Positions 17,835 to 32,465 of a stretch of 46,866 bases of DNA are shown here, piece after piece. The notes beneath the pieces were generated by a model. The model was given only the letters and a program-made list of their open reading frames with translations. It was not told the DNA's origin and searched no databases. The stretch's first letter is position 1. Each line of letters opens with the position of its first letter. This stretch comes from Candidatus Lokiarchaeota archaeon (GTDB lineage: Archaea > Asgardarchaeota > Thorarchaeia > Thorarchaeales > Thorarchaeaceae). Position numbers and translations under genes: made by a program. Location: contig WJIL01000097.1 of assembly GCA_014730275.1 (NCBI GenBank), positions 1-46,866 of the forward strand. Reading direction: 5' to 3'.

Positions 17835-18188
17835 ATAGATTGAATTCAACCATCCATTTCTCCAAAATTGAAAAAGGGCACCAGTTCAATGGCAAAATGG
17901 GGACATTTGGAACACGTGTTCTAAGTAAAGTATCCAAATAAACCACCATTTCGCGCGACTTTGAAGAAGAGAATATGGTAACTAGCGTTCTAAGAGGGGT
18001 TTCATAGCATAGTGCCTAATCGGTAAAACGCGACTCTTGCCTTCCCTAAGTTTAATATAGTTAATTAACAATAGCAAATCATCACACAGAGCATTGTGTT
18101 GACGAGGAGAGCAAGAAATCACGAATTTCACGGAGTTAGTAACCGGTCAGGTTAGTTTCTTGGTTCTCACTCGTATTGCTTTTTCACC
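17835..18188. other. Upstream region of the giant surface-protein operon
   Basis: No gene is seen. It contains a perfect 12-bp palindrome GAACACGTGTTC at 17910-17921, flanked loosely by TTTGG and CCAAA, and the promoter element described separately at 18051-18067. From that element to the first start codon the leader would be about 120 nt. Confidence 0.4.
18051..18067 (+). promoter_or_regulatory. TTTAATATAG TTAATTA promoter element of the giant-protein operon
   Basis: TTTAATATAG is a plausible TATA box and overlaps the 12-mer TATAGTTAATTA (18056-18067), which also occurs at 15465 and 37709. It is the best promoter candidate upstream of the 14-kb operon. A strong ribosome-binding site (GGAGGT, 18190-18195) precedes the TTG start at 18201. 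Confidence 0.5.
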
Positions 18189-18200
18189 GGAGGTAGTAAG

Positions 18201-21200
18201 TTGCTAACTGAGAGAGAGAATAGAATCAAGATAGTGACGGTGCTCATTGTCGCAGTATTCATGTTTGGGCTGGTTCCGCAAGCAGTCTGGGCAGGACAGG
18301 CCTATGAGCAAGGAAACCAAGCCATTCCAGAGCCCTTTGATGGCTATGACCTCGATTGGATCAATATTTTCTATGATCCCAACGATGAGGTCATGACGAG
18401 AGTCGCAGAACTAGTTCATGAAGTAATATCCTATCGATTGAACAACATCCGACTTGTCCAGATTTCATCGCCTCAAGATGTAGAATATAATCTGATGGAT
18501 AGGCCATGGATGGCAGTATACGCATTTGATTCGAATCTGACAGGAGTTTCCTTCGAAAGTCGATTCGTTTCTTGGCGGTCATTCTCTCAGATTCTATCTG
18601 CAGAAAGACAAACCCAACATATTGTGGGAATGGGGAACACCCTTTCTCTTCAGGAGTATCTTGATTCTGATGATTCTCACATTCACATCAATGAAGCCCA
18701 ACAAACCGATGCCATATTGCTTATGATGTATGACATCTGGACGGTTGCATCTATTGTAAAACAGAAAGCCGATGTGAATGACGAGTATGCAGGTGCTGCA
18801 AAGGATCTCCGGTCAATAGCTACCAAAATATACGCAGACAACTTCAATGCATTGTTCAAAGCCCAGGCGAATCCTACAACTCCAGTCGGGCAAGTAGATG
18901 AGGCTGCTAGAAAGAAGAGAAAAGAGAAAATGTGGGAAGAGCATGCACCCGCAATTCGCCCGGCAAAATATAGAAGAACAGAGAACGGGAGCCTTGTTGA
19001 AATCCCACCCGGTGAAGTCCCAGAAGATTTCTCACCCACCATGAAAATAAGCTCGGAGGCTGAGCTGGCGGATGATGATTTTGTTCTTGGTGAACTACCT
19101 CTTCTCTCAGGCCTCAGAGGCCCGATTGGTGATATCGTCGATATCTTGCTTGAACTCCTAACTGACAAGGGGAAAACGGTACTCTCAATCCCCGAAGGTG
19201 TTATGGAGACTGTCAAGGAGGCCTTTGGGAGTATACAAGAACTAGTAGGACTTGTTGATGATTTTGATGCTGAAAGCGTTCTGAAAGAACTCCTACAATC
19301 GCTTGCCAATGAATTCCCGTTTGTAGAAAATCTCAAGCCCTATCTCGATGTTCTCGTCAAGTTACTTTTCAATCTTAGAGGTGAAGTTGAAGATATAGTC
19401 CCAGTAGTCACTGAGCTGATTGAGGGTCTGTTATCGGATGTTCTTCCTCCAGAAGCCCTAGACATGGTCGAACTTGTTCTGGACATGGGTTCTTCACTTC
19501 AAACCACAATTGAAGCTGCAAGAGAAAATGGAAAGAGCATTTTCAATGTCTTGGTTTCACATTTCACCGATCAGCTGTTCTCTAGGACTCTGAATAAAAC
19601 ACTCGTAGCAACTCTATCAATGTCACAGACCAATGCAAATACCATTCTTACCAAAGCAGACGATTTCATTGGTCCACTCATTCGTTACATAGTCAGTCAA
19701 GATGCCCAGAAACTGTTAGAAGAACTCTACGGTCCACTTCTTCAAAGCGTATTGGAATCTGTCTCATCCGCAGCTGAAGAAGCTGTGGGAAAAATTGATT
19801 CCGTAATAATGCTTGGTTTAACTCTAACCGAACTAGTCGACAATTTTGATGAAGAGAGCATCGCAACCCTCTTGCAAGAAACCCTTATCGAGATTATCGG
19901 CTCTTCAGGAATCACTGACACAGCTGAGAATTTCGCTCAGGATTTACTTGATGTGGTGAAAAGATACAAAGAACAAAGTCTCAGCAGCATTTCAGATTTT
20001 AGAAACGAAACATCTACAGTTATTGACAACGCTGTAGATTCTACCGTCTCCAGTAGCACGCGAGCCATAATTGAAGATCTTGTGCTTTTGATTGCAGGAT
20101 TCCATAATGATGGTTTCAGCCCAAGTGACGTACCTGATATGTTTGAGATAGCCGAAGCTATACTGGACGAATCGGACCTTCCAACAGATACACTGAACGA
20201 CTTGAAAGACTTCCATAATTCAGTGGTCCAACCCACACTCCTAACTGTTGGAGAACTAACTGATAACGACGGACTAAGAAAACTTACATCACAAACAGTT
20301 TCACAGTTTCAGACAGAATTCAGTAGCTATTCTGCAGTTTTCATGCAGGTTGTAGAATACTTCGATGCTGATGACTACCTTTCTTCTATCCCTAATTATG
20401 AGAATACGTTGGAGACAGCAGGGCAATTCTACCAAGTTGTGATCAGAGTTTCGGGAGCAGCAAAAGGCCAGTCCTTTGAAGGCGTTGTACAATCTGTCTG
20501 GCTATCAATCAACGGAATAATTGGATACCATCCATCATTTGATAATGTCCCCATTGATGCATACCTAAATCTTCTACAGATTCTCTTTCCAGAGGCTTTT
20601 GGTCTTGAAAGAGGCGAAGCACCACGCCCAAATCAAGTTATAGACCAAGTTATGGAAGCAGCCCAAGGAGAATTGAGCGGGGCAATAGACCCATCCACAC
20701 TTGAGGTCTTCCTTGAATTGGTCATGGAGGTAAAGGGGCTCTTTACAGAAGGTCTTGATTGGATTGTCGGAAAGATTCTGGATTGGTTGCAGGGACTCAT
20801 TCAACCGGTCATCAAGAATCTTGAAGATGCGATAACGAGTGTTCTTGGGGAAAATCAGGAGCTACTCGGATTTCATAACACTCTCCCAATAGGACTTGGC
20901 TCATGGTCATTATTCGATTTAAAGGTCGACCTTGGTATTATTGCCAACTTCGCAATTGACGCTTCACCCCTCTTTGATATGGTGAAAAGCCTGATACTGG
21001 ATGCTCGGCAAGTTTTCAGTCTAGACAATCTTGGAGATTTCTTTGGGATTGTGTTCAAGTTCTTTGAAATATCACCGCAGTTTTATGCAGAACTAGGTGT
21101 TGCTGGATTTGATACCGCACAGAACCCCTTCATGAAATTCCTTCTAGAAGCACTGGGAGTTTCTTTGTCTTTCAGTGGGAGCGCCAAATTCGTACTCAAC

Positions 21201-24200
21201 CTCTTCACATTCAAGGGTGGAGTCTTTCAGTGGGAGAACTTCATGAGGATTGTAGAATGGGCTCTCAACATCAAGGTCGAGATTTCACGTACCTTCACGT
21301 TGCTTGATTTCCTTACTGGTGGTGTTGGTGGCGGCGCGCTCAACACCGTAGCCAAATTCCTTGGATTGGACGCAATTACAGTGACCATATTTCTAGGTGT
21401 TGAGCTGATAATTATCAAACAAGCTGCAACGGCGACCATGCCTGAAGTATCCACATTGACTCTCATCTTGACTCTAGGTGCTACTTTACACATAGGAATC
21501 AGTATCGTCATTGCATCCCTCGACATAGATGGTACACTTGAGATCATTCTAGAGTTCTTCCAGAACCTTGCCAATAGCGCACCAATGCAAATCACGCTCA
21601 GGTTGATACTGACACTGAAAATCAAGATTACACTAGCCTTCTCAGATATCAAGAAGAAATGGGTCTGGGAGGTTCCAGGGTCTCCCTGGGATCTGTCTCC
21701 AAAATCTGGAGATGAGGAATATGAGGAATCAGGGGTAGGTTTCGACTCGGATGGTGACGGACTATCCGACACGTATGAGGAGGGCGTACCTGGTCTTGAT
21801 CCGTCAAAGACAGATACTGATGGTGATGGTGCCTCTGATAAGCTCGAAGTACAGACCATGGGCACAGATGCCACAGTTCCTGACGAGGACAACGATGGCC
21901 TCCTAGACGGGGAAGAGTGGGAGTTAGGAACCAGCCCAGTCAACTCAGACTCGGATTATGACGGAGTGAACGACTTCGATGAGGTAAACAAGTACAAGAC
22001 AGACCCGCTGTCTCAGGACACAGATGGGGATGCCCTGAGTGATGCGTACGAAATCTTCACTCCATGGAACATCTCTGGAATCACACCCACCGTAACCGAA
22101 GTTGTCATTGGCGGAAAGACCTACAATGATAGAACTGATCCACTTGTGGCAGATACAGATGGCGATGGACTTGTTGATGGAGATGAAGGACCAATGGGCG
22201 ATTACTACGGGCTTAGCTCGCTCTACAATGAGTCTGACGATGCCGTTGATGGTAATCCGCTGATTTTCAATGACGGGTATACGCACCCCCTTGATAGTGA
22301 TACTGACGACGATAGCTATCTTCAGCTCTACAACGGTGACATCGACCAGCAAGCACTGACCTTCCTCAAGGACATGAACGATGGTGCAGAGGTTGCAGGT
22401 TTCACCATCACAGTGTACGACGAAAACGGTGAGCCAGAGAAGAAGAAAGTAGTAACGAATCCTGTGAATCCAGATACAGACGGCGATACCGGAATCGAGG
22501 ACCGTACACCGCAACCGGGCGCATGGATAAACAGTGACGGTTACGAGCTCGCTCAGACACCGCCAACAGATCCTACAGACGGGGATTCTGACGACGACGG
22601 CCTCATCGATGGCTTGGAGGGTGTTCTGAAAGAGAATAGCAACCACACGAATGCAAACGACCCAGACACGGATGACGATGGACTCTATGACATGGAGGAG
22701 TTGCTCATGGGAACTGACCCACGTTCTGCAGATACGGACGGGGATCAGATTCCAGACGGAGAGGAGTTCTTCACTTTCTTCACCAATCCAAGAATAGCAG
22801 ATTCTGACTTCGATGGCGTCATTGACGGGGAAGAGGTCTATCTTTGGCATAGCAATCCGTTATCTGACGATTCGGACGGGGACGGACTACGAGATGGCCA
22901 AGAGATACTGGTGTTCGGTTCCGATCCTATGGACGAAGATGGCGATAATGATGGATTGAGTGATTTCGAGGAGGCCAAAATCTGGTACACGAATCCATTC
23001 GAATACGATTCTGATGGAGATGGGCTTTCTGACGGGGAGGAGGCGTTGGAATGGGGTTCGGATCCGCTGAACTGGGACACCGATGGTGACTCCATCAAAG
23101 AACCCAACGAAGATGGTGAGATGACGTGGCCCATGAACGATTACCACGAGGTCAGAATCTACGGCACCAATGTCACCGATGCTGATAGTGATCTAGATGG
23201 CTTAGGGGATGGGTTGGAATTGTACCTAGCATCGGGTCAAATACCATGGACTGAGCCTATCATGATTGACCCAATGATGCATGATACAGATGGGGATGGG
23301 TTGGCAGATGGTTCTGAAGTACGGCTCAAGAACGTGACAGATATCATCTATCCGTACAGGGCAGAAACGCTGTTCTATCCGTACAATACGAGCCCAACTG
23401 AATCAGATACTGATAGAGACAATATTACAGATTACGAGGAGGTCATGGTCTGGAACAGCAATCCAGCCCATAACGATACGGACAATGACACATTGTCGGA
23501 TTGGCAGGAAATCTATGTCTACAATACATCTGCTATCTACAATGACACAGATGGAGACGGATTACTCGATAATGAGGAATCACTAACACCTGTTTATCCA
23601 CTTACCAACGGAACGCCTCCATTCTTCCTAGGAGCGGCAATAGCACAGGATTCCACCTACGAAACGGATGCACTCAACCCTGATAGTGATGGAGATAATC
23701 TGCCGGATGGATCTGAGGTTGATTTCTACGGTACATCGCCTACGGATAGCGATTCGGATGGCAACGGCGTGCCAGATGGCAGGGAGTTTGATACTGACCA
23801 AGATGGTTTGTCGGACGGCCTCGAATTCCAAATCCATACTGAATACGCTCCGGGAGGAGGATTCCGGAACCCAGATTCTGATGGAGATGGCCTCCTTGAC
23901 GGCGATGAATACTATACCTACGGAACTTCACCCACAGAAGCTGATACTGACGGAGATGGCTATTCTGATGGCACAGAAATCTCGATTGGAACTGATCCAC
24001 TAACATATACAGATCAAGAAACTTTCGAGTTGAGACTTGCTGCAAGGCGGGGCGAGACGACTATAGATGTACTTCTCCCCAAGAATGCCACTGAAGTTTA
24101 CCAGAATACACCTGTACGAGCGGTTAACTATACCAATTTCGTAAGCATGTGGGTTACCTACAACAACGGTAGTGGCTGGAGCGAGCCTATACAACTGGTC

Positions 24201-24545
24201 TATGATTCTTCGACCCAGCAATGGTACAATGATACTGTTACATGGCAGCCTGGAGAGTATGAGCTCCGTGTATACGGACAAGATGCTGAAGGCGGTCATC
24301 ACGTAAAACAAGTCTCATTCTTAGTGCAATCTGGCTACCGACCGTTAATACCAATGTGGATGCTGCTTGCCATAGGAGCCGTGGCAGCAGTAGTGGTTAT
24401 CGCCATTGTCGGCTACAAAACTGGCTTCATAGAACGACTCACAAAACGTTTCAAAGATGAGAGTGATACTGATGGAAAGACGGAAAGCGCTACAACGAAA
24501 GAAGAGGAAGAAAGCCCGAAGGACTCAGAGGAGGGAGAGGATTAG
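18201..24545 (+). CDS. Giant surface protein: helical region, thrombospondin type-3 calcium repeats, C-terminal anchor
   Basis: 2114 aa. TTG start with GGAGGT 5-6 nt upstream and a signal peptide ending near AVWAGQA (residue 33). Residues about 40-900 are mostly amphipathic helix with recurring phrases such as LVDDFDAESVLKELL (about 350) and LVDNFDEESIATLL (about 546). Residues about 900-1160 include hydrophobic strand-like and glycine-rich stretches. From about 1180 to 1936 there are roughly 26 acidic motifs of the form D-x-D-x-D-G-x-x-D, thrombospondin type-3/calcium-binding repeats with many N-glycosylation sites. A beta-sandwich-like domain follows, then one membrane helix (about 2052-2072) and an acidic cytoplasmic tail. 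It is translationally adjacent to a second giant surface gene. It is probably a calcium-stiffened stalk or adhesin. The helical half is not recognised. Confidence 0.8.
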   Translation: MLTERENRIKIVTVLIVAVFMFGLVPQAVWAGQAYEQGNQAIPEPFDGYDLDWINIFYDPNDEVMTRVAELVHEVISYRLNNIRLVQISSPQDVEYNLMDRPWMAVYAFDSNLTGVSFESRFVSWRSFSQILSAERQTQHIVGMGNTLSLQEYLDSDDSHIHINEAQQTDAILLMMYDIWTVASIVKQKADVNDEYAGAAKDLRSIATKIYADNFNALFKAQANPTTPVGQVDEAARKKRKEKMWEEHAPAIRPAKYRRTENGSLVEIPPGEVPEDFSPTMKISSEAELADDDFVLGELPLLSGLRGPIGDIVDILLELLTDKGKTVLSIPEGVMETVKEAFGSIQELVGLVDDFDAESVLKELLQSLANEFPFVENLKPYLDVLVKLLFNLRGEVEDIVPVVTELIEGLLSDVLPPEALDMVELVLDMGSSLQTTIEAARENGKSIFNVLVSHFTDQLFSRTLNKTLVATLSMSQTNANTILTKADDFIGPLIRYIVSQDAQKLLEELYGPLLQSVLESVSSAAEEAVGKIDSVIMLGLTLTELVDNFDEESIATLLQETLIEIIGSSGITDTAENFAQDLLDVVKRYKEQSLSSISDFRNETSTVIDNAVDSTVSSSTRAIIEDLVLLIAGFHNDGFSPSDVPDMFEIAEAILDESDLPTDTLNDLKDFHNSVVQPTLLTVGELTDNDGLRKLTSQTVSQFQTEFSSYSAVFMQVVEYFDADDYLSSIPNYENTLETAGQFYQVVIRVSGAAKGQSFEGVVQSVWLSINGIIGYHPSFDNVPIDAYLNLLQILFPEAFGLERGEAPRPNQVIDQVMEAAQGELSGAIDPSTLEVFLELVMEVKGLFTEGLDWIVGKILDWLQGLIQPVIKNLEDAITSVLGENQELLGFHNTLPIGLGSWSLFDLKVDLGIIANFAIDASPLFDMVKSLILDARQVFSLDNLGDFFGIVFKFFEISPQFYAELGVAGFDTAQNPFMKFLLEALGVSLSFSGSAKFVLNLFTFKGGVFQWENFMRIVEWALNIKVEISRTFTLLDFLTGGVGGGALNTVAKFLGLDAITVTIFLGVELIIIKQAATATMPEVSTLTLILTLGATLHIGISIVIASLDIDGTLEIILEFFQNLANSAPMQITLRLILTLKIKITLAFSDIKKKWVWEVPGSPWDLSPKSGDEEYEESGVGFDSDGDGLSDTYEEGVPGLDPSKTDTDGDGASDKLEVQTMGTDATVPDEDNDGLLDGEEWELGTSPVNSDSDYDGVNDFDEVNKYKTDPLSQDTDGDALSDAYEIFTPWNISGITPTVTEVVIGGKTYNDRTDPLVADTDGDGLVDGDEGPMGDYYGLSSLYNESDDAVDGNPLIFNDGYTHPLDSDTDDDSYLQLYNGDIDQQALTFLKDMNDGAEVAGFTITVYDENGEPEKKKVVTNPVNPDTDGDTGIEDRTPQPGAWINSDGYELAQTPPTDPTDGDSDDDGLIDGLEGVLKENSNHTNANDPDTDDDGLYDMEELLMGTDPRSADTDGDQIPDGEEFFTFFTNPRIADSDFDGVIDGEEVYLWHSNPLSDDSDGDGLRDGQEILVFGSDPMDEDGDNDGLSDFEEAKIWYTNPFEYDSDGDGLSDGEEALEWGSDPLNWDTDGDSIKEPNEDGEMTWPMNDYHEVRIYGTNVTDADSDLDGLGDGLELYLASGQIPWTEPIMIDPMMHDTDGDGLADGSEVRLKNVTDIIYPYRAETLFYPYNTSPTESDTDRDNITDYEEVMVWNSNPAHNDTDNDTLSDWQEIYVYNTSAIYNDTDGDGLLDNEESLTPVYPLTNGTPPFFLGAAIAQDSTYETDALNPDSDGDNLPDGSEVDFYGTSPTDSDSDGNGVPDGREFDTDQDGLSDGLEFQIHTEYAPGGGFRNPDSDGDGLLDGDEYYTYGTSPTEADTDGDGYSDGTEISIGTDPLTYTDQETFELRLAARRGETTIDVLLPKNATEVYQNTPVRAVNYTNFVSMWVTYNNGSGWSEPIQLVYDSSTQQWYNDTVTWQPGEYELRVYGQDAEGGHHVKQVSFLVQSGYRPLIPMWMLLAIGAVAAVVVIAIVGYKTGFIERLTKRFKDESDTDGKTESATTKEEEESPKDSEEGED

Positions 24546-27500
24546 ATGAAGCATAGAGTTACATCAATCATTCTACTTGCATTTCTATCAGTAAGCGTAG
24601 TCTCCATAGTACCAGCCTTACCGGCTACAAACACTGACGGAGATGTGGTTTCTACTCCATCTACTCCTCTGAATGATGTACCCGAAGATATTGAGCCAAA
24701 GGTTAAGGATCTCCTTGCTGATGAGCAGCAAACCAAATATCCTGCAGATACTGATATTGGAAAGGCGCTCGGTAATAGAGAGAACCTCTACAGCAAGGTC
24801 TTTGAACCTTGGAAATCGAAGGCAGCCATCCATTCTGTCGCCTATCACGAAGAAACTGGATTCCTGGCACTAGGCGGAGGATATCTCTATGATAACGAGA
24901 TTCACATCTATCGCTTGAATACAGAAACTGGCTATTTCGATAAGGTCTGGGATAGTGGGGACGGAATCATCCAGAGTGATGTGCTTAGCCTTGACTTTGC
25001 TGACACCGACTTGAATGATTTCCTCGAGATTGTGGCTGGAAGCTCTGATGGGCACTTCTATGTGTTTGAGCAAAGACACATCTATGATCCCGAGACCAAC
25101 ACCGAGAACATGTTTGACCATGTGTACACTTCACCGTGGATGTTCCGTGTTTTCGATGTTGAAGTAGAGGATGTCGATAAAGACTACCGCCCAGATATCA
25201 TCGCGGGAACATGGGAAGGTGTGTATCTGTTTGAATATGACACACACTCTGGCTATCCATTCACAGAAGAACATTGGATTGAGTACAGACGGGTATGGCA
25301 CTCGGGCTCTTTGAATGGAGAGAGAGTATATTCCATAGAGGCGGGAGACAGCAATAACAATGGCCTTCCAGAGATCATTGCTGGAACTCGCGAAGGCACT
25401 GTATATGTTTTCGAGAACGATGGGCTCACGACGATAATCAACGGGCAGCCGTTCCCCCTTGTGCAGGATAATGCTTACTACCTGAACTGGACAAGTGAGA
25501 ATTACACATGGACGCCAATTCGAGATATGGCTCTAGGTGAACTTGATGGAACCTCGGGAGATGAAATCGCACTTGTTGCTTCTGGACAGGGAATATTGAC
25601 TCTGGACTGGAATAGCAATCGGAGAACCTACGATTACGAGAAGGTCTACAAGGAGTATGCTGAATGGGAAACCTTCGGACACTGGGCATTGGATTATTGG
25701 GTTGATAAAGTCGTTCAAGCAAAGAACGTCACCTATCACGACCCAAATAATGCATCCATCGTGGAATCCGAACCTATCAATTACGTATGGGGCGGGTCAT
25801 ACTTCATTCCAAATGCAAGTGTCTATCCATACAATACTGGTATGGCTTGGGAGACTGATGGCAATTATTCCACATTTGACTCGAGCATAGCTGGGGTTGA
25901 CAATGCAACAGCTATAGTTGATTTTGGTAAGGATGAAGAAGGCACTGGGGGAGCTAACTCGATGCCAGATATCATTATGGCATTCAGGAATACCTTATCG
26001 ACAGATGTTCTTGATGATTTGAACTTTTCAGTTGGTCAGAGTTCAACAGATTTTGAGCAGATATCAGCTGACCGTTTCACAATCGATGGTAACTTGCTGA
26101 GGATAGATGTCGACGATGCGCTTCAACGAAGAAAATGGGATTGGTTTAGGTATGCCAAGATTTCCGTCTTCAATGGAGCTACATACGAAATCAATTCACT
26201 CGAACTCCAACAGGTCTACAATCTTCTTACAGACGCCCTATCAGTGACTATTGGTCCATTGAGGAGGAATGCATATGCATATTTCTCAGGGACTGAAGAA
26301 TCAGACAAAATCATAGCTGGCACTGCAACGGGCAAGTACATCGGGATTTCCTATGATTCCATGAATGACGATTTCGATATCATTTTCGATTCCGGAGAAG
26401 ATGAAAGATACACAGAAGGAACAGGAATCTGGGACCTAGTAAACGTTCAAACAATGACAGATGTACCAATATGGAGGTATTTGTTCAATCCTAATCCAGA
26501 TGGCTTCGTTCCGCCTCTGTTTCAAATCCCTTCAGGAAAGGCCTATACTTCTTGGAGCTATGGTAGACACAATCTGCTTGGAGCACCAAACTATTTTGTA
26601 GGAACCAATGAGAGCGAGATTGCTGCCTTAAACATGCTAGGGCAAATGGATTCTGAAATCAACTCGTATCTCAGCCCTGTGAATACGTATCTTTCAGGAG
26701 CGGGAAGTGAGAAACCATCAGTGGCTGTTGAAATGCCATTCATAGACACCAATCAATTCAGTAGAATGCCTGTGGTAGCAGTGTCATCATATGACCCTGG
26801 TGTGAATCCAACATGGTCAGCAGCATCGCTTTCAACGGCAAAAATCAATTTCTTCTATCGAAGTACCCAGAATACGTCAGCACCGTTCTCAGAACGGGTA
26901 TCAATTTCCGATGTTGATACTACTGGTGCTATAACAGAACTCCTCGGGGTTTCACAGACCACTCCAAAGATGCATTTTGTGGATGTTGATGGAGATGAAG
27001 ACAAGGACATGGTATTTACGAATGGTCGGGTCTATCTTGCAAGAAACCTCTTGCAGGAGAACGGGGGATACACCAATGATTTGAGCCTCAGCATTGTCCA
27101 TGACTACTTCAAGGGCATAAACGATGTTGCTCCGGGGAAAGGATGGGGTCAACCACATATGTTTGATCTTGATGATGATGGTGATCTCGACATTATTATG
27201 AACTACGTTGACCGTGCAGGGGCGACAGCCTTCCTCAACGAAGGAACAGAGCAAAATCCTCACTGGGTTGAAGACGACAACATCTTCAGCAACAACCGCC
27301 CACAGACGAGCCTTAGATACAACAACTTCACCGATATCCGTATTGTACCTACTGGCAAAGGATATACTCTTGATGTCTACGCGGATGTAAACAATTTCGA
27401 TGTTGATGTCGATTACACTATGGTTGCATATGATTTAGATAACAGCTACACGCTCTGGGCTGAACCGATATTTGATGCAGTTGACAGTTACATAGCTGCA

Positions 27501-30500
27501 ACGTATCCACGGGTCGTCAGGACCGAGATGAGTCTAATGTATGGTGGTGGACAAGACTTCCTGAACTTCGGTTTCAGAATCAGGGAATCATGGAGTACAG
27601 ATGATGACCTAGATGAATGGACACTAACAGTTGATTCGGGGGACTTAGATGATGATGATAACGGAGAGATCGTCATAGGTGACTATGACAATAACGTCTA
27701 CGTCTTTGAGAATCTCGTGAATAACACATACAAGCGCATGTATCAATCATTTGACTTGAATCATACTGTCACAACCGATGAAAGTCCATATCTCTATGAT
27801 GAACTGGAAGGCATATCTGGTGAGTTCACACGTAGAATCTGGGATCACGCAAAACACCTCTTGGCAGGAGTGGACCTCGACAAGGATGGCCTGAAGGAAT
27901 TCATTGTAAGCTCAGGCTTGCAACTCTACGTTTTCGAGGACATGAACCTAACCGGAGGGGACCAGATGGAGTTTGTGTACTCCATAGACCTCAGAAACTC
28001 AGAATTCGTGGGTGAACCGGGTTGGAACCAAGTTGAGGAGATAACTGCTATCGCACAAGGTAATGACCTGGACTACGACTCCCGCAAAGAGCTCATAGTA
28101 GGCGCAGGACCATATCTCTTTGTGTTCAATGTTCCGAATAATGATTTCAATGGAACAGAGAAAAATGACTATTTCGTAACGCAGCCCAGTCTCGATGGTA
28201 GATATTACCTTCTAGGAAACCCCTATTCCGACAAGTACGAGTACGCTTCCATTCAGACAATTGCTGTAGGTGACACCGACAATGATGCATATCGGGAAAT
28301 TATCCTTGGTGGAACCAATGACACCCGCTATCAGCGAGAGACCGGATTTGCATACATCTACGAATCACAAGGTGGTACATTCCACAAGGTGTGGGAGGCA
28401 CCACCGGAGGTGGTCAAATGGAATCCTGTATCAGTTATCAAAATCGATGACCAAGACTATGATAGCTATCAAGAAATAATCATTGGCCACACCAAGGGAT
28501 TTGACATCTGGGAATGGATTCCTGCGACAGATTCCAAGTATCAGAAAACGGAGTACGTAACTGCATCTCCAAACTACCCCATTATCCCGGTCAATCATAC
28601 ATTGCGAGGAACGGAATCTTTTGACATCACAGACAGAGCTCATTCAAGTCTGACGAACGGCAGAGGTAGTTTCAGCAATTACGTGATGCATGTCTATACC
28701 AACGAGACCATTCCTTCAACCGAAACCAATGAAATCCAGGAAAGCAAGCTCTACTGGAAGAAATATGACAAGACAACAGGTGAATGGTCCTTTGGACAGC
28801 CGCTTTACGCTAATCCATATGGTGAGAAGGGTGAACTCGGTCATGACGACCAGCCCACAGTAACTACTACTGATGCTGGAGAAATCTATGCTGCATGGAG
28901 AGTGGTAGACGAATTCGGTGATTGGTATCTGTACGCTGCAAAGTTCGATATAGCAACCGAAACATGGCAAGATCCACTTAGATTAACAAGCGGAGTTGGG
29001 TACGAATATCGGCATTATCCAGAAATCTTCGAGTTCAACTCAACACACATGGGTATTGCCTATGTAAAGCGTATCATCTGGGGAAGTGATGTAATCCCCA
29101 TTTCAAGCGTCCTATACTTCAGCAAAGGCATGACGGCAGGAGTTACTGGTCACGAGATATACTTCAAGCAAGTTGGAGATCTATGGGTCCACTCGATATC
29201 CATTACTCGAACCGATGAAGGGAATTTCATTTTAGCCATGGCTGCAGAAAACCGAGGGCTCAACAAGCTGGACTATGATATCTGGACACTTGAACTGAAC
29301 GGCAGTATGTGGGCAGGGAACAACAGCATTCATCAAGCAACCTCATCCCGTAATGATGAGCTCTTCCCCGACATTGACCAGCTTGAATCAGAAGACAATT
29401 CACTAGTGGTCATATATGAATCGGTAACATCACCATATGAGAGAAGGATAGGTATGGCTGCAAGTACCGATGGGGGGTTGAGTTGGGGACATCAAGATAA
29501 TCTGAATGTTATTCCCAAATTTGTCGAAAGGATAGAGCATCTAGACACAGGTCAGGTCTCGTATCAATGGGACACATCGGTCTATACTGGTCTACGATCT
29601 TTCTCACCAACAGTCGTAGCAATGGATGGAGAAGGATTCATGTATGCCTTCGTTTGGACATTCAGCGAAGCGCAGATCAATTTTGCTGACTACACATTCA
29701 ATCTGGGTTGGCCGATGTATGGCATCAATCCACAATCAGATTGGACAGGGAACCACTTAGGCCCTGTAAAAGACCTTGATACTGGTGATTCGGATAAAGA
29801 TGGTAGAAAGGAGATTGTAGCTGGATGGGATAACCAAGTTGGATCATACGAGCTCAAGTCCTCCACTAACGAAACAGGATTCATGACCTATCGGGAGGTC
29901 TGGTTATCTGAGACCTATGAGAACTCGTTCAATGGACTGACCGTCTATGACTCCAACGGGAATGGCTGGCCAGAGATTGCTGTTGCCACAGGTAGGGGTG
30001 ATGTGTTTCTCTACGAATACCGGAAACCATCATCTGGTGCTACTGACTTGGTCTTTCCGGAACAGACCCTGAATACGAGCGTCGGTATCTATGGATCACT
30101 ACTTACCATCAACAAATGGGACTTCGATGCTGATTCGAAGGAAGAAATTCTACTTGGATCGCAGATAAACGGTAGTCTCATGGCCATTGATGATGACGGA
30201 ACAACACTATGGGAGAATACAGACGCTACGGGCAGGTACTTCTGGATTGACCTTATCGATCTCAACAATGATACTGCTCCAGAGGTCATTGGTCGATCCC
30301 AAGACACTCACCTCTATGCCATTGACGGTTCTACCGGCAATCAGCTCTGGAACTACTCTGCAGGTTCAGTCTACATCTACGGTGTTGACGGGGGCGATCT
30401 CACAGGTTCTGCAGATACGGAGCTCACGATTGGACTGTCTAACGGCAGTTTGGTGGTACTCTCAAACCAAGGTGATGTTATAGCAAGCCATAATGTGGCT

Positions 30501-32465
30501 GGAAGCGAAATTTATGGTGTTGAGCTTGGCCGCTTCACGGAGAGTAATACCACGCTTGCAGCCTTTGGTACGTACGGCGGAGAATTCACAGTTGTCAATC
30601 CACTTAATGGAACAACTGTATACACGGCTTCCAACATCATCCGGGGAGGGAGTTGGCCCAGTGAGATACATGCCTACGATTTCGATGAAGATGGAGTCAA
30701 AGAACTGGTCTTTGGGGACGAAGAAATCCGAATCCTTTCACTCACAACAGGAGAAATCTACTTCAACTCGACGGCCTACGGCGATATTCACCATGATATA
30801 TTCATTGAGGACTTCGATGGGGATACCAATGTGGAGATAGTCTCCTTCACACAATACAACGGTGTCTTCATGGTTGAACCTAAGGGTGGTGTCACCCAAT
30901 GGCATTATGATCCAGAGATTAGTGTGCTTCAAGATATAGATGTAGGATACTTAGGCGGGACAGGAACCCTAGACATAGCAGTTGTTAGTAGTGGAGGGTA
31001 TACTGTTGCGCTCGATGGTAAGAATGGCATCCCGATGTGGTTCCATGAGCTAAGTGAGCTCTATATTGGAGGCGTGGCGGCGAATCTTACAGGCGGGAAA
31101 TACGACAGATTAGCTGGGTCTAGTACATCAGGAAGGGTGTTTGGTTTCACTAGTCAGGAACAGCCAGCACCGGTTCTGGAACCAGCCTGGGTAGCCCACT
31201 CCGAATACATCACCTTCAATACTGGCAAAGAAACTCTTGATCAAGGAATTGCTGAAGATTTCAATGGAGATGCTGTAGACGAGATTCTGGTCAGCAATTT
31301 CGATAGGCATCTCAATCTATGGAATGCAACGACAGGCGAACTCATCTGGAACGTAAGTTTCAATGAGGGAATCGATTCAATCAGAGTTGGCAATGTAGAT
31401 GGCTCAGGATATTTGGATGTGGGAGTTCTTCTCAACGAGCTATTCGTGATTGTGAAAGGCGAAAGCGGTGCGAATATCACTGAATTCCAGGTTCCAGATG
31501 GGTTCCAAGTTGCAGACTTCTACATAGATGAATTCAACGCAGGACACACTGGTGATGAACTGGCTGTAACATATGAGAGATATCTACCCTACCTCGGCTA
31601 TGTAGCATGGTACGATGATTCAGGCTCAGAGATGTATCGTAGCAAGCAGAATGTAACAAACTGGGGCAACTCCATGGCTATTGGGCGATTCACCAATAGC
31701 GGAACCCTGGATGTGGCCATTGGTGGCTACAATAACATCGTGAAAGTATTCAGAGGAACTGATGGCAGCTATGTACAAGAGTACAATCTTGGAGATTACA
31801 TCTACGAAATTGTTCCAGGATACTTTGATGGAGACAACTATGAAGACATAGCTCTCCGTGGAAGCGACTATGACATTACCGTAGTGGAACAAGCGGGGAA
31901 TAGCATGCTGTTTGACGTACCTGTGGATTCAAGATTCAGGAGCTATCACGCTGCTGACGTGGTGGCCGGAGACGGAGTGGATGAGCTGCTGGTGAACATT
32001 GAGGAACTCGGTATCATAGGATATGATAACGCTGTTAACGAGGTATGGAGATTTGACTCCGCTACGACCCTGCCAGAGCAGCTGGCATCAGTACGGATCA
32101 GCGATTGGGGCAGTGATGGTGTAGAAGACGTTGTATTCACAAACTGGAACTACATCAATGTGATAAATGGCTCAACTCAGAATCTAGCATGGCACTATCT
32201 TGGCTCCGATGGTGTCTATGATCCGATGATAGGCAATTTCGACTCAGCCAGTACTCCAGAAGATATAGCATATCTATCTGACAGTAAGGTGGTCATTGTG
32301 TCCGGGTCTGAAACACCGTTGACATCACCTTCATCCCCAGAAGCAGCCGAGCTTGAACCATCAATCATAGAGCAGATAGCATCCACCTCGATTGCTGTCA
32401 CTCCGCTCATATTGCTGATGGTGGCACCACTGAGTATCTACTGGAGAAGAAAGGAAGAGAAATAG
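24546..32465 (+). CDS. Giant surface protein of FG-GAP/VCBS beta-propeller repeats with C-terminal anchor
   Basis: 2639 aa. ATG directly follows the upstream stop, with GGAGGGAGAGG as ribosome-binding site. A signal peptide ends near ALPATNTDGD. Repeats follow the integrin-type pattern of a calcium loop and a strand: DVDKDYRPDIIAGT, DSNNNGLPEIIAGT, DLDDDGDLDIIMNY, DTDNDAYREIILGG, DSDKDGRKEIVAGW and many more to the end. Several also look PQQ-like (ATGELIWNVSF, STGNQLWNYSA). Residues about 1350-1700 resemble a sialidase-type propeller with an Asp-box (STDGGLSWG near 1640). A membrane helix near the end (SIAVTPLILLMVAPLSIYW) precedes RRKEEK. Several propellers in tandem would form a long extracellular binding rod. 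Ligand and role are unknown. Confidence 0.82.
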   Translation: MKHRVTSIILLAFLSVSVVSIVPALPATNTDGDVVSTPSTPLNDVPEDIEPKVKDLLADEQQTKYPADTDIGKALGNRENLYSKVFEPWKSKAAIHSVAYHEETGFLALGGGYLYDNEIHIYRLNTETGYFDKVWDSGDGIIQSDVLSLDFADTDLNDFLEIVAGSSDGHFYVFEQRHIYDPETNTENMFDHVYTSPWMFRVFDVEVEDVDKDYRPDIIAGTWEGVYLFEYDTHSGYPFTEEHWIEYRRVWHSGSLNGERVYSIEAGDSNNNGLPEIIAGTREGTVYVFENDGLTTIINGQPFPLVQDNAYYLNWTSENYTWTPIRDMALGELDGTSGDEIALVASGQGILTLDWNSNRRTYDYEKVYKEYAEWETFGHWALDYWVDKVVQAKNVTYHDPNNASIVESEPINYVWGGSYFIPNASVYPYNTGMAWETDGNYSTFDSSIAGVDNATAIVDFGKDEEGTGGANSMPDIIMAFRNTLSTDVLDDLNFSVGQSSTDFEQISADRFTIDGNLLRIDVDDALQRRKWDWFRYAKISVFNGATYEINSLELQQVYNLLTDALSVTIGPLRRNAYAYFSGTEESDKIIAGTATGKYIGISYDSMNDDFDIIFDSGEDERYTEGTGIWDLVNVQTMTDVPIWRYLFNPNPDGFVPPLFQIPSGKAYTSWSYGRHNLLGAPNYFVGTNESEIAALNMLGQMDSEINSYLSPVNTYLSGAGSEKPSVAVEMPFIDTNQFSRMPVVAVSSYDPGVNPTWSAASLSTAKINFFYRSTQNTSAPFSERVSISDVDTTGAITELLGVSQTTPKMHFVDVDGDEDKDMVFTNGRVYLARNLLQENGGYTNDLSLSIVHDYFKGINDVAPGKGWGQPHMFDLDDDGDLDIIMNYVDRAGATAFLNEGTEQNPHWVEDDNIFSNNRPQTSLRYNNFTDIRIVPTGKGYTLDVYADVNNFDVDVDYTMVAYDLDNSYTLWAEPIFDAVDSYIAATYPRVVRTEMSLMYGGGQDFLNFGFRIRESWSTDDDLDEWTLTVDSGDLDDDDNGEIVIGDYDNNVYVFENLVNNTYKRMYQSFDLNHTVTTDESPYLYDELEGISGEFTRRIWDHAKHLLAGVDLDKDGLKEFIVSSGLQLYVFEDMNLTGGDQMEFVYSIDLRNSEFVGEPGWNQVEEITAIAQGNDLDYDSRKELIVGAGPYLFVFNVPNNDFNGTEKNDYFVTQPSLDGRYYLLGNPYSDKYEYASIQTIAVGDTDNDAYREIILGGTNDTRYQRETGFAYIYESQGGTFHKVWEAPPEVVKWNPVSVIKIDDQDYDSYQEIIIGHTKGFDIWEWIPATDSKYQKTEYVTASPNYPIIPVNHTLRGTESFDITDRAHSSLTNGRGSFSNYVMHVYTNETIPSTETNEIQESKLYWKKYDKTTGEWSFGQPLYANPYGEKGELGHDDQPTVTTTDAGEIYAAWRVVDEFGDWYLYAAKFDIATETWQDPLRLTSGVGYEYRHYPEIFEFNSTHMGIAYVKRIIWGSDVIPISSVLYFSKGMTAGVTGHEIYFKQVGDLWVHSISITRTDEGNFILAMAAENRGLNKLDYDIWTLELNGSMWAGNNSIHQATSSRNDELFPDIDQLESEDNSLVVIYESVTSPYERRIGMAASTDGGLSWGHQDNLNVIPKFVERIEHLDTGQVSYQWDTSVYTGLRSFSPTVVAMDGEGFMYAFVWTFSEAQINFADYTFNLGWPMYGINPQSDWTGNHLGPVKDLDTGDSDKDGRKEIVAGWDNQVGSYELKSSTNETGFMTYREVWLSETYENSFNGLTVYDSNGNGWPEIAVATGRGDVFLYEYRKPSSGATDLVFPEQTLNTSVGIYGSLLTINKWDFDADSKEEILLGSQINGSLMAIDDDGTTLWENTDATGRYFWIDLIDLNNDTAPEVIGRSQDTHLYAIDGSTGNQLWNYSAGSVYIYGVDGGDLTGSADTELTIGLSNGSLVVLSNQGDVIASHNVAGSEIYGVELGRFTESNTTLAAFGTYGGEFTVVNPLNGTTVYTASNIIRGGSWPSEIHAYDFDEDGVKELVFGDEEIRILSLTTGEIYFNSTAYGDIHHDIFIEDFDGDTNVEIVSFTQYNGVFMVEPKGGVTQWHYDPEISVLQDIDVGYLGGTGTLDIAVVSSGGYTVALDGKNGIPMWFHELSELYIGGVAANLTGGKYDRLAGSSTSGRVFGFTSQEQPAPVLEPAWVAHSEYITFNTGKETLDQGIAEDFNGDAVDEILVSNFDRHLNLWNATTGELIWNVSFNEGIDSIRVGNVDGSGYLDVGVLLNELFVIVKGESGANITEFQVPDGFQVADFYIDEFNAGHTGDELAVTYERYLPYLGYVAWYDDSGSEMYRSKQNVTNWGNSMAIGRFTNSGTLDVAIGGYNNIVKVFRGTDGSYVQEYNLGDYIYEIVPGYFDGDNYEDIALRGSDYDITVVEQAGNSMLFDVPVDSRFRSYHAADVVAGDGVDELLVNIEELGIIGYDNAVNEVWRFDSATTLPEQLASVRISDWGSDGVEDVVFTNWNYINVINGSTQNLAWHYLGSDGVYDPMIGNFDSASTPEDIAYLSDSKVVIVSGSETPLTSPSSPEAAELEPSIIEQIASTSIAVTPLILLMVAPLSIYWRRKEEK

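Follow-up and report, generated by a model that had tools for sequence, protein, structure and literature searches.

A conserved, sometimes fused gene pair encoding two giant membrane-anchored surface proteins in Asgard archaea

Two giant genes, referred to here as A and B, lie head to tail in an Asgard archaeal genome, and each encodes a protein with a signal peptide and a C-terminal membrane helix. This raises the question of whether their products form a single device and, if so, what that device does at the cell surface. The stretch of DNA analysed (the window, 46,866 nucleotides) is contig C97 of a 3.64-Mb Asgard genome (G000). Its relevant features, in coordinates of the window, are the following.

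18189-18193, + strand: Shine-Dalgarno sequence GGAGG of gene A (from sequence), 7 nt upstream of the TTG start
18201-24545, + strand: gene A, 2114 aa, with signal peptide, head, TSP3 stalk and C-terminal membrane helix
18201-18293, + strand: signal peptide of A, VPQAVWA/G, its cleavage motif conserved among relatives
18333-18875, + strand: alpha/beta domain of A, aa 45-225 (AF2 part aa 49-142), from AF2, domain alignment and hhalign
18528-18530, + strand: Asp110 of A, replacing the catalytic-type His of relatives (domain alignment)
18633-18635, + strand: Gly145 of A, replacing the catalytic-type Cys of relatives (domain alignment)
19122-20849, + strand: predicted alpha-helical solenoid of A, aa 308-883 (AF2), missing in short-form paralogues
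20859-21671, + strand: strand domain of A, aa 887-1157, about 9-10 long antiparallel strands (two AF2 runs, conservation)
21744-23969, + strand: TSP3 (DxDxDGxxD) repeats of A, aa 1182-1923, about 25, of calcium-binding type (PF18884 and motif counts)
24003-24335, + strand: membrane-proximal domain of A, aa 1935-2045, probably a beta-sandwich (from sequence)
24354-24410, + strand: C-terminal membrane helix of A, aa 2052-2070, followed by a charged cytosolic tail (hydropathy)
24530-24535, + strand: Shine-Dalgarno sequence GGAGGG of gene B (from sequence), within the last codons of A
24546-32465, + strand: gene B, 2639 aa, with signal peptide, FG-GAP/PQQ-type propellers and C-terminal membrane helix
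24798-25895, + strand: first FG-GAP propeller region of B, aa 85-450, with FG-GAP_3 at aa 209-278 (conservation)
26982-28481, + strand: second FG-GAP stretch of B, aa 813-1312, 7 motifs (motif positions)
29463-29486, + strand: STDGGLSW of B, aa 1640-1647, the sole canonical Asp-box motif, with weak domain-level support
29787-31286, + strand: third propeller stretch of B, FG-GAP/PQQ (BamB-like), aa 1748-2247 (profiles and motif positions)
32364-32432, + strand: C-terminal membrane helix of B, about aa 2607-2629, then an RRKEEK tail (hydropathy)

The TAG stop of A occupies positions 24543-24545 and the ATG of B begins at 24546. The statement in the initial annotation that B starts directly after the stop of A is therefore exact in coordinates, order and zero spacing. 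The TTG start codon of A is preceded by a strong Shine-Dalgarno sequence, and in most relatives inspected that of B likewise lies inside or adjoins the C-terminal codons of A. The signal peptides and the single C-terminal membrane helix ascribed to both proteins are indeed present, as judged from hydrophobic N-termini and hydropathy. A comparison of the two species of the genus shows purifying selection on both genes (dN/dS 0.067 in A, 0.096 in B). About 140 nt upstream of gene A, at 18045-18070, there is an AT-rich, TATA-like stretch, tttaatatagttaattaac, which is a possible archaeal promoter.

To what extent is the pair conserved? We searched 59 relatives with the N-terminal half of A and with B, and 228 Asgard genomes with a profile of A. 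A broader search covered one genome per species across 84,980 species, with a sensitivity set by two peptide patterns, and all of its matches fell in Asgard-labelled or unlabelled archaeal records. A is present in 48 of the 228 Asgard genomes, a patchy distribution among genomes many of which are incomplete. At 37 of the fetched loci, spread over Thorarchaeota, Harpocratesius and other Asgard families, the gene directly after A is B; three of these loci were recognised from the TSP3 tail of an A gene at the start of a contig, and the genomes represented include G062, G105 and Harpocratesius (G136), each of which is a single contig. The genome of the window itself carries three A-B pairs (C97, C9 and a short form on C142). 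The order is B-A at two further loci (a second copy in G105, and G098), G018 carries two B genes in tandem, and a complete B lacking an upstream A was found only once (G054:C149). The objection that the two genes might occur mostly apart in related genomes thus fails, and their pairing as a conserved system, initially an inference, now extends over much of the Asgard phylum. We found no paper describing the pair in the open-access literature.

Two loci carry A and B as a single open reading frame, of 4836 aa in G226:C38 (L114/L128) and of 4881 aa in G225:C144 (L105/L129). At the junction the membrane helix of A, a basic linker of about 60-75 residues and the signal helix of B are all kept. Since G226 is sister to the unfused G028 in both the A and the B tree while G225 branches elsewhere in both, the pattern is most simply explained by two fusion events, apparently independent of each other. 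A third candidate, a 3533-aa open frame in G019:C5, was not used as a fusion, its A stretch being N-masked: 4710 bases of N (L076:5688-10397) lie exactly where a short-form A would be expected. Other irregular copies include one A with an in-frame TAG (L084, G011:C76) and a B in two frames with one TGA inside the match (L077, G013:C226), each a sequencing error or a pseudogene, as well as a variant A of 1442 aa lacking the TSP3 stalk (L131, G087:C137), about 4 kb from a 1281-aa B-like ORF.

The trees of A and B resemble each other. Their distances correlate with a Mantel r of 0.95, where the best of 2000 permutations reached 0.54; the corresponding figures within the long Thorarchaeota form are 0.43 and 0.35. 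The pair of the window groups with that of Harpocratesius as its sister, with support of 1.0 in one tree and 0.92 in the other, which is consistent with the pair having been passed on or transferred as a unit. Some A and B branches within Thorarchaeota disagree (G015, G225), suggesting that partners are exchangeable. Together, the conserved pair, its order and the two natural fusions mean that the case for joint action rests on more than adjacency. Because the two proteins are sometimes fused in a single chain, they are very probably one device, and on balance we favour the reading that A and B, through coupled translation, form one two-subunit surface complex for contact or capture.

Is there a third constant component? 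In some families the gene downstream of B encodes an additional secreted, membrane-anchored protein; the window has none. These proteins are PPC-bearing (f20, f21), of beta-helix type (f15 and the loci of B-A order) or FN3-bearing (short form). The last, at L063:12839-14680 with homologues in L074, L075, L076 and L094, is about 610 aa long, secreted and membrane-anchored; it is FN3-like in its C-terminal part, shows a Cys...His...Asn pattern by eye and matched no peptidase family. As the downstream genes vary, a third gene was rejected as a fixed component, and A and B are the sole constant members. In G105:C1 a run of giant surface-protein genes (1642291-1680106; L120, L221, L121) spans about 38 kb in the order A, B, PPC protein, B, A, beta-helix protein, the last having cytosolic TPR.

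The alternative that survives best is that A and B are a structural coat or glycocalyx which protects a wall-less cell and binds no specific ligand. Both proteins are huge, acidic and rich in N-X-S/T (20 and 36 sites, respectively), and the single membrane of Asgard cells is covered with surface proteins while lacking an ordered S-layer (PMC9834061). However, the patchy occurrence (48/228 genomes), the several divergent pairs per genome and the varying third genes are more in keeping with a specialised device than with a bulk coat, and we regard this explanation as unlikely.

What, then, do the two proteins consist of? In A, the TSP3 profile PF18884 matches with E 1.8e-27 and 95.2 bits, well above the Pfam cut-off of 25. 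There are 18 motifs of DxDxDGxxD type and 23 by a looser pattern, giving 25 combined positions at aa 1182-1923, so that the original estimate of about 26 type-3 calcium motifs was fair. The myxobacterial proteins MtsD (cohesion) and CglD (a gliding lipoprotein) resemble A in being secreted, membrane-attached and endowed with long DxDxDG TSP3 runs, but they have another head, whereas A has a fixed partner. Against the NCBIfam equivalogs of these two proteins A scores far below the cut-offs (61 of 800 and 152 of 400 bits), and both matches run through the repeats only. The membrane-proximal domain following the stalk (aa 1935-2045) has no Pfam match.

The part of A preceding the stalk had been described as a long unrecognised helical region. 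Unrecognised it is: searches of Pfam, NCBIfam and PDB sequences yielded no known domain, and the possibility of a known, unrelated domain there falls away. Helical it is only over about 575 residues, the region being a composite of three parts. AF2 models place an alpha/beta domain first, then a helical solenoid, then long amphipathic strands. The head model was built from 17 sequences (mean pLDDT 67.9, pTM 0.47) and the strand region was modelled again from 14 (mean pLDDT 70); in both the few sequences limit confidence; the solenoid is best modelled at about aa 450-790 (pLDDT 66-92). The long-strand domain, whose strands are hydrophobic, is the best conserved part of A. Short-form A copies (C142 and others) keep the alpha/beta and strand parts without the solenoid.

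In a Foldseek comparison of the head model with the PDB, the only matches with E <= 0.001 were two MTP chains (2.9e-4 and 4.0e-4), followed by further MTP, honey-bee vitellogenin and lipovitellin. As modelled, the A head resembles MTP and vitellogenin in having a helical superhelix and, after it, long-stranded sheets, but the TM-score is about 0.1 with an rmsd of 34 A, which is not a global match, and there is no sequence relation. The strand domain alone found outer-membrane barrels first (FepA, 4.5e-4, TM 0.31), with MTP at 0.01. We treat both the MTP and the barrel matches as leads, not assignments. A head that handles lipid or another hydrophobic cargo in a groove between solenoid and strand sheet, with B positioning it, would accord with these MTP matches and with the hydrophobic, comparatively well conserved strands. 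The low TM-scores and high rmsd, the closer resemblance of the isolated strand domain to FepA-type barrels, the short forms with strands and no solenoid, and the lack of any sequence match to lipid transfer proteins all speak against such a function, which we consider improbable.

The alpha/beta domain of the A head is more revealing. It is homologous to an Asgard domain family with an H-G...C pattern (hhalign prob 99, E 2e-18), whose wider membership emerged from a search with a stalked solo protein of contig C21 and which occurs in 27 of the 228 Asgard genomes. The aligned stand-alone relatives carry His and Cys, with a W between, in 20 of 20 cases, although these 20 were selected with a pattern of which the Cys is part, and one match lacking that pattern (L161) was set aside. 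By contrast, the Cys is absent from all 30 paired A copies (28 Gly, 1 Ala, 1 Pro) and the His from 29 of them. Seven TSP3-stalked copies retain an intact H-G...C (G000 C14, G000 C21, G001, G019, G099, G100 and G101), and no B was found beside them in the fetched flanks. Since the Cys is lost in the paired copies and both residues are kept in the stalked copies lacking B, the head of A has probably lost an enzymatic function and been taken over for binding. As the 30 paired copies share ancestry, the Cys may have been lost in a single old event. An intact H-G...C domain was also seen inside a 13,746-aa open frame (L159, G131:C3, around 1041178-1041552), far larger than any frame in the window.

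His and Cys are arranged in this family as in cysteine peptidases of clan CD (caspases, gingipain C25, CHAT), the stand-alone relatives of A having H-G and C at the expected places. Clan CD enzymes of the caspase type use a Cys/His dyad within an alpha/beta/alpha sandwich (PMC11121540). In the AF2 model the order of strands and helices in A agrees with the caspase-hemoglobinase fold. A differs from these peptidases in having no Cys and almost always no His, Asp110 and Gly145 standing at these positions in the window. Profile comparison did not establish clan CD membership: hhalign against C14, CHAT and C25 gave probabilities of 0-4%, in a test of little power, since the control pair C14 and C25 itself reached 5%. 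A match to caspase-1 (E 1.2) is likewise not significant, its H-G being in register. From pattern and topology, we consider the family of this domain probably caspase-like.

That A might be a peptidase regulator or substrate carrier, its dead domain pairing with intact H-G...C relatives while B recruits substrate, is very unlikely: such relatives exist in the genome of the window (on contigs C14 and C21), the third protein of short-form operons shows a Cys...His...Asn pattern and pseudocaspases such as cFLIP, which acts with caspase-8, provide a precedent (PMC11121540), but the caspase-like fold of A is not proven, the intact relatives are unlinked to the A-B pair and a strong intact relative is missing from most genomes that carry A-B.

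The composition of B is more familiar. FG-GAP_3 (PF13517) matches with E 3.2e-21 and 76.1 bits, above the Pfam cut-off of 26.9, and FG-GAP was found in 12 of 12 B homologues; the FG-GAP-type propellers first proposed for B are thus borne out by profiles. B also has 17 DxDxDG-like repeats and a PQQ/BamB-like propeller near aa 1866-2072, and its best conserved part is N-terminal (aa 85-450). The Asp-box domain attributed to it fared less well. Beside the one canonical motif there is only a partial second one, at aa 1441, and the BNR profile matched 1 of 12 homologues (E 0.007), so B does not qualify as an Asp-box/BNR sialidase-type propeller protein.

These elements allow us to outline how a two-subunit complex of A and B would work. 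One transcript and coupled translation would yield A and B in a fixed ratio, as single-pass membrane proteins with almost all of their mass outside the cell. The TSP3 stalk, predicted to be calcium-loaded, would lift the A head off the membrane. This head, an inactive peptidase-like domain with a solenoid and long amphipathic strands, is probably a binding module. B would form a beta-propeller rod, probably docked on A by its conserved N-terminal end, and we infer that the physical complex so formed contacts or captures a partner, be it another cell, matrix or a macromolecule. A two-subunit contact or capture receptor is the most likely function of the pair.

The layout recalls that of integrin alpha/beta, also two single-pass proteins with short tails, of which one bears FG-GAP calcium-type propellers and the other an alpha/beta head on a stalk. 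Integrin has a single propeller and EGF/PSI modules, whereas A-B has many propellers and TSP3 repeats, and no vWA/I-like domain was matched by Pfam in A. The likeness is an analogy in layout and does not extend to homology of A. Integrin subunits associate non-covalently at the cell surface; for A and B, an association is suggested by the fusions and the conserved linkage. Integrin-like families have already been noted in Asgard archaea, among them fam15271, which adjoins tubulin/FtsZ (PMC9258230), as have proteins with integrin repeats (Liu et al. 2021, as cited in PMC9258230). These are integrin-like at the sequence level, and no paired system figures in their description in the excerpted text of PMC9258230. 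More speculatively, and with rather low probability, A-B could be an Asgard two-chain adhesion receptor of integrin-like layout, and account for part of the surface structures by which Asgard protrusions and partner cells are held together. It would have arisen independently of integrins, by combining an inactive caspase-like head, carried on a calcium stalk, with a rod of FG-GAP propellers.

The cultured Lokiarchaeum has a single membrane that is covered with unidentified complex surface proteins and bears no ordered S-layer (PMC9834061), and by analogy A and B would fit among such proteins. No known prokaryotes are more closely related to eukaryotes than the Asgard archaea, and contact between cells has a central place in hypotheses on eukaryotic origins. 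The conserved, sometimes fused two-gene system described here is a concrete candidate for part of the Asgard surface, and it provides a testable clue in that the copies joined to a partner have lost a cysteine-peptidase-like site which the stalked copies without a partner have kept.
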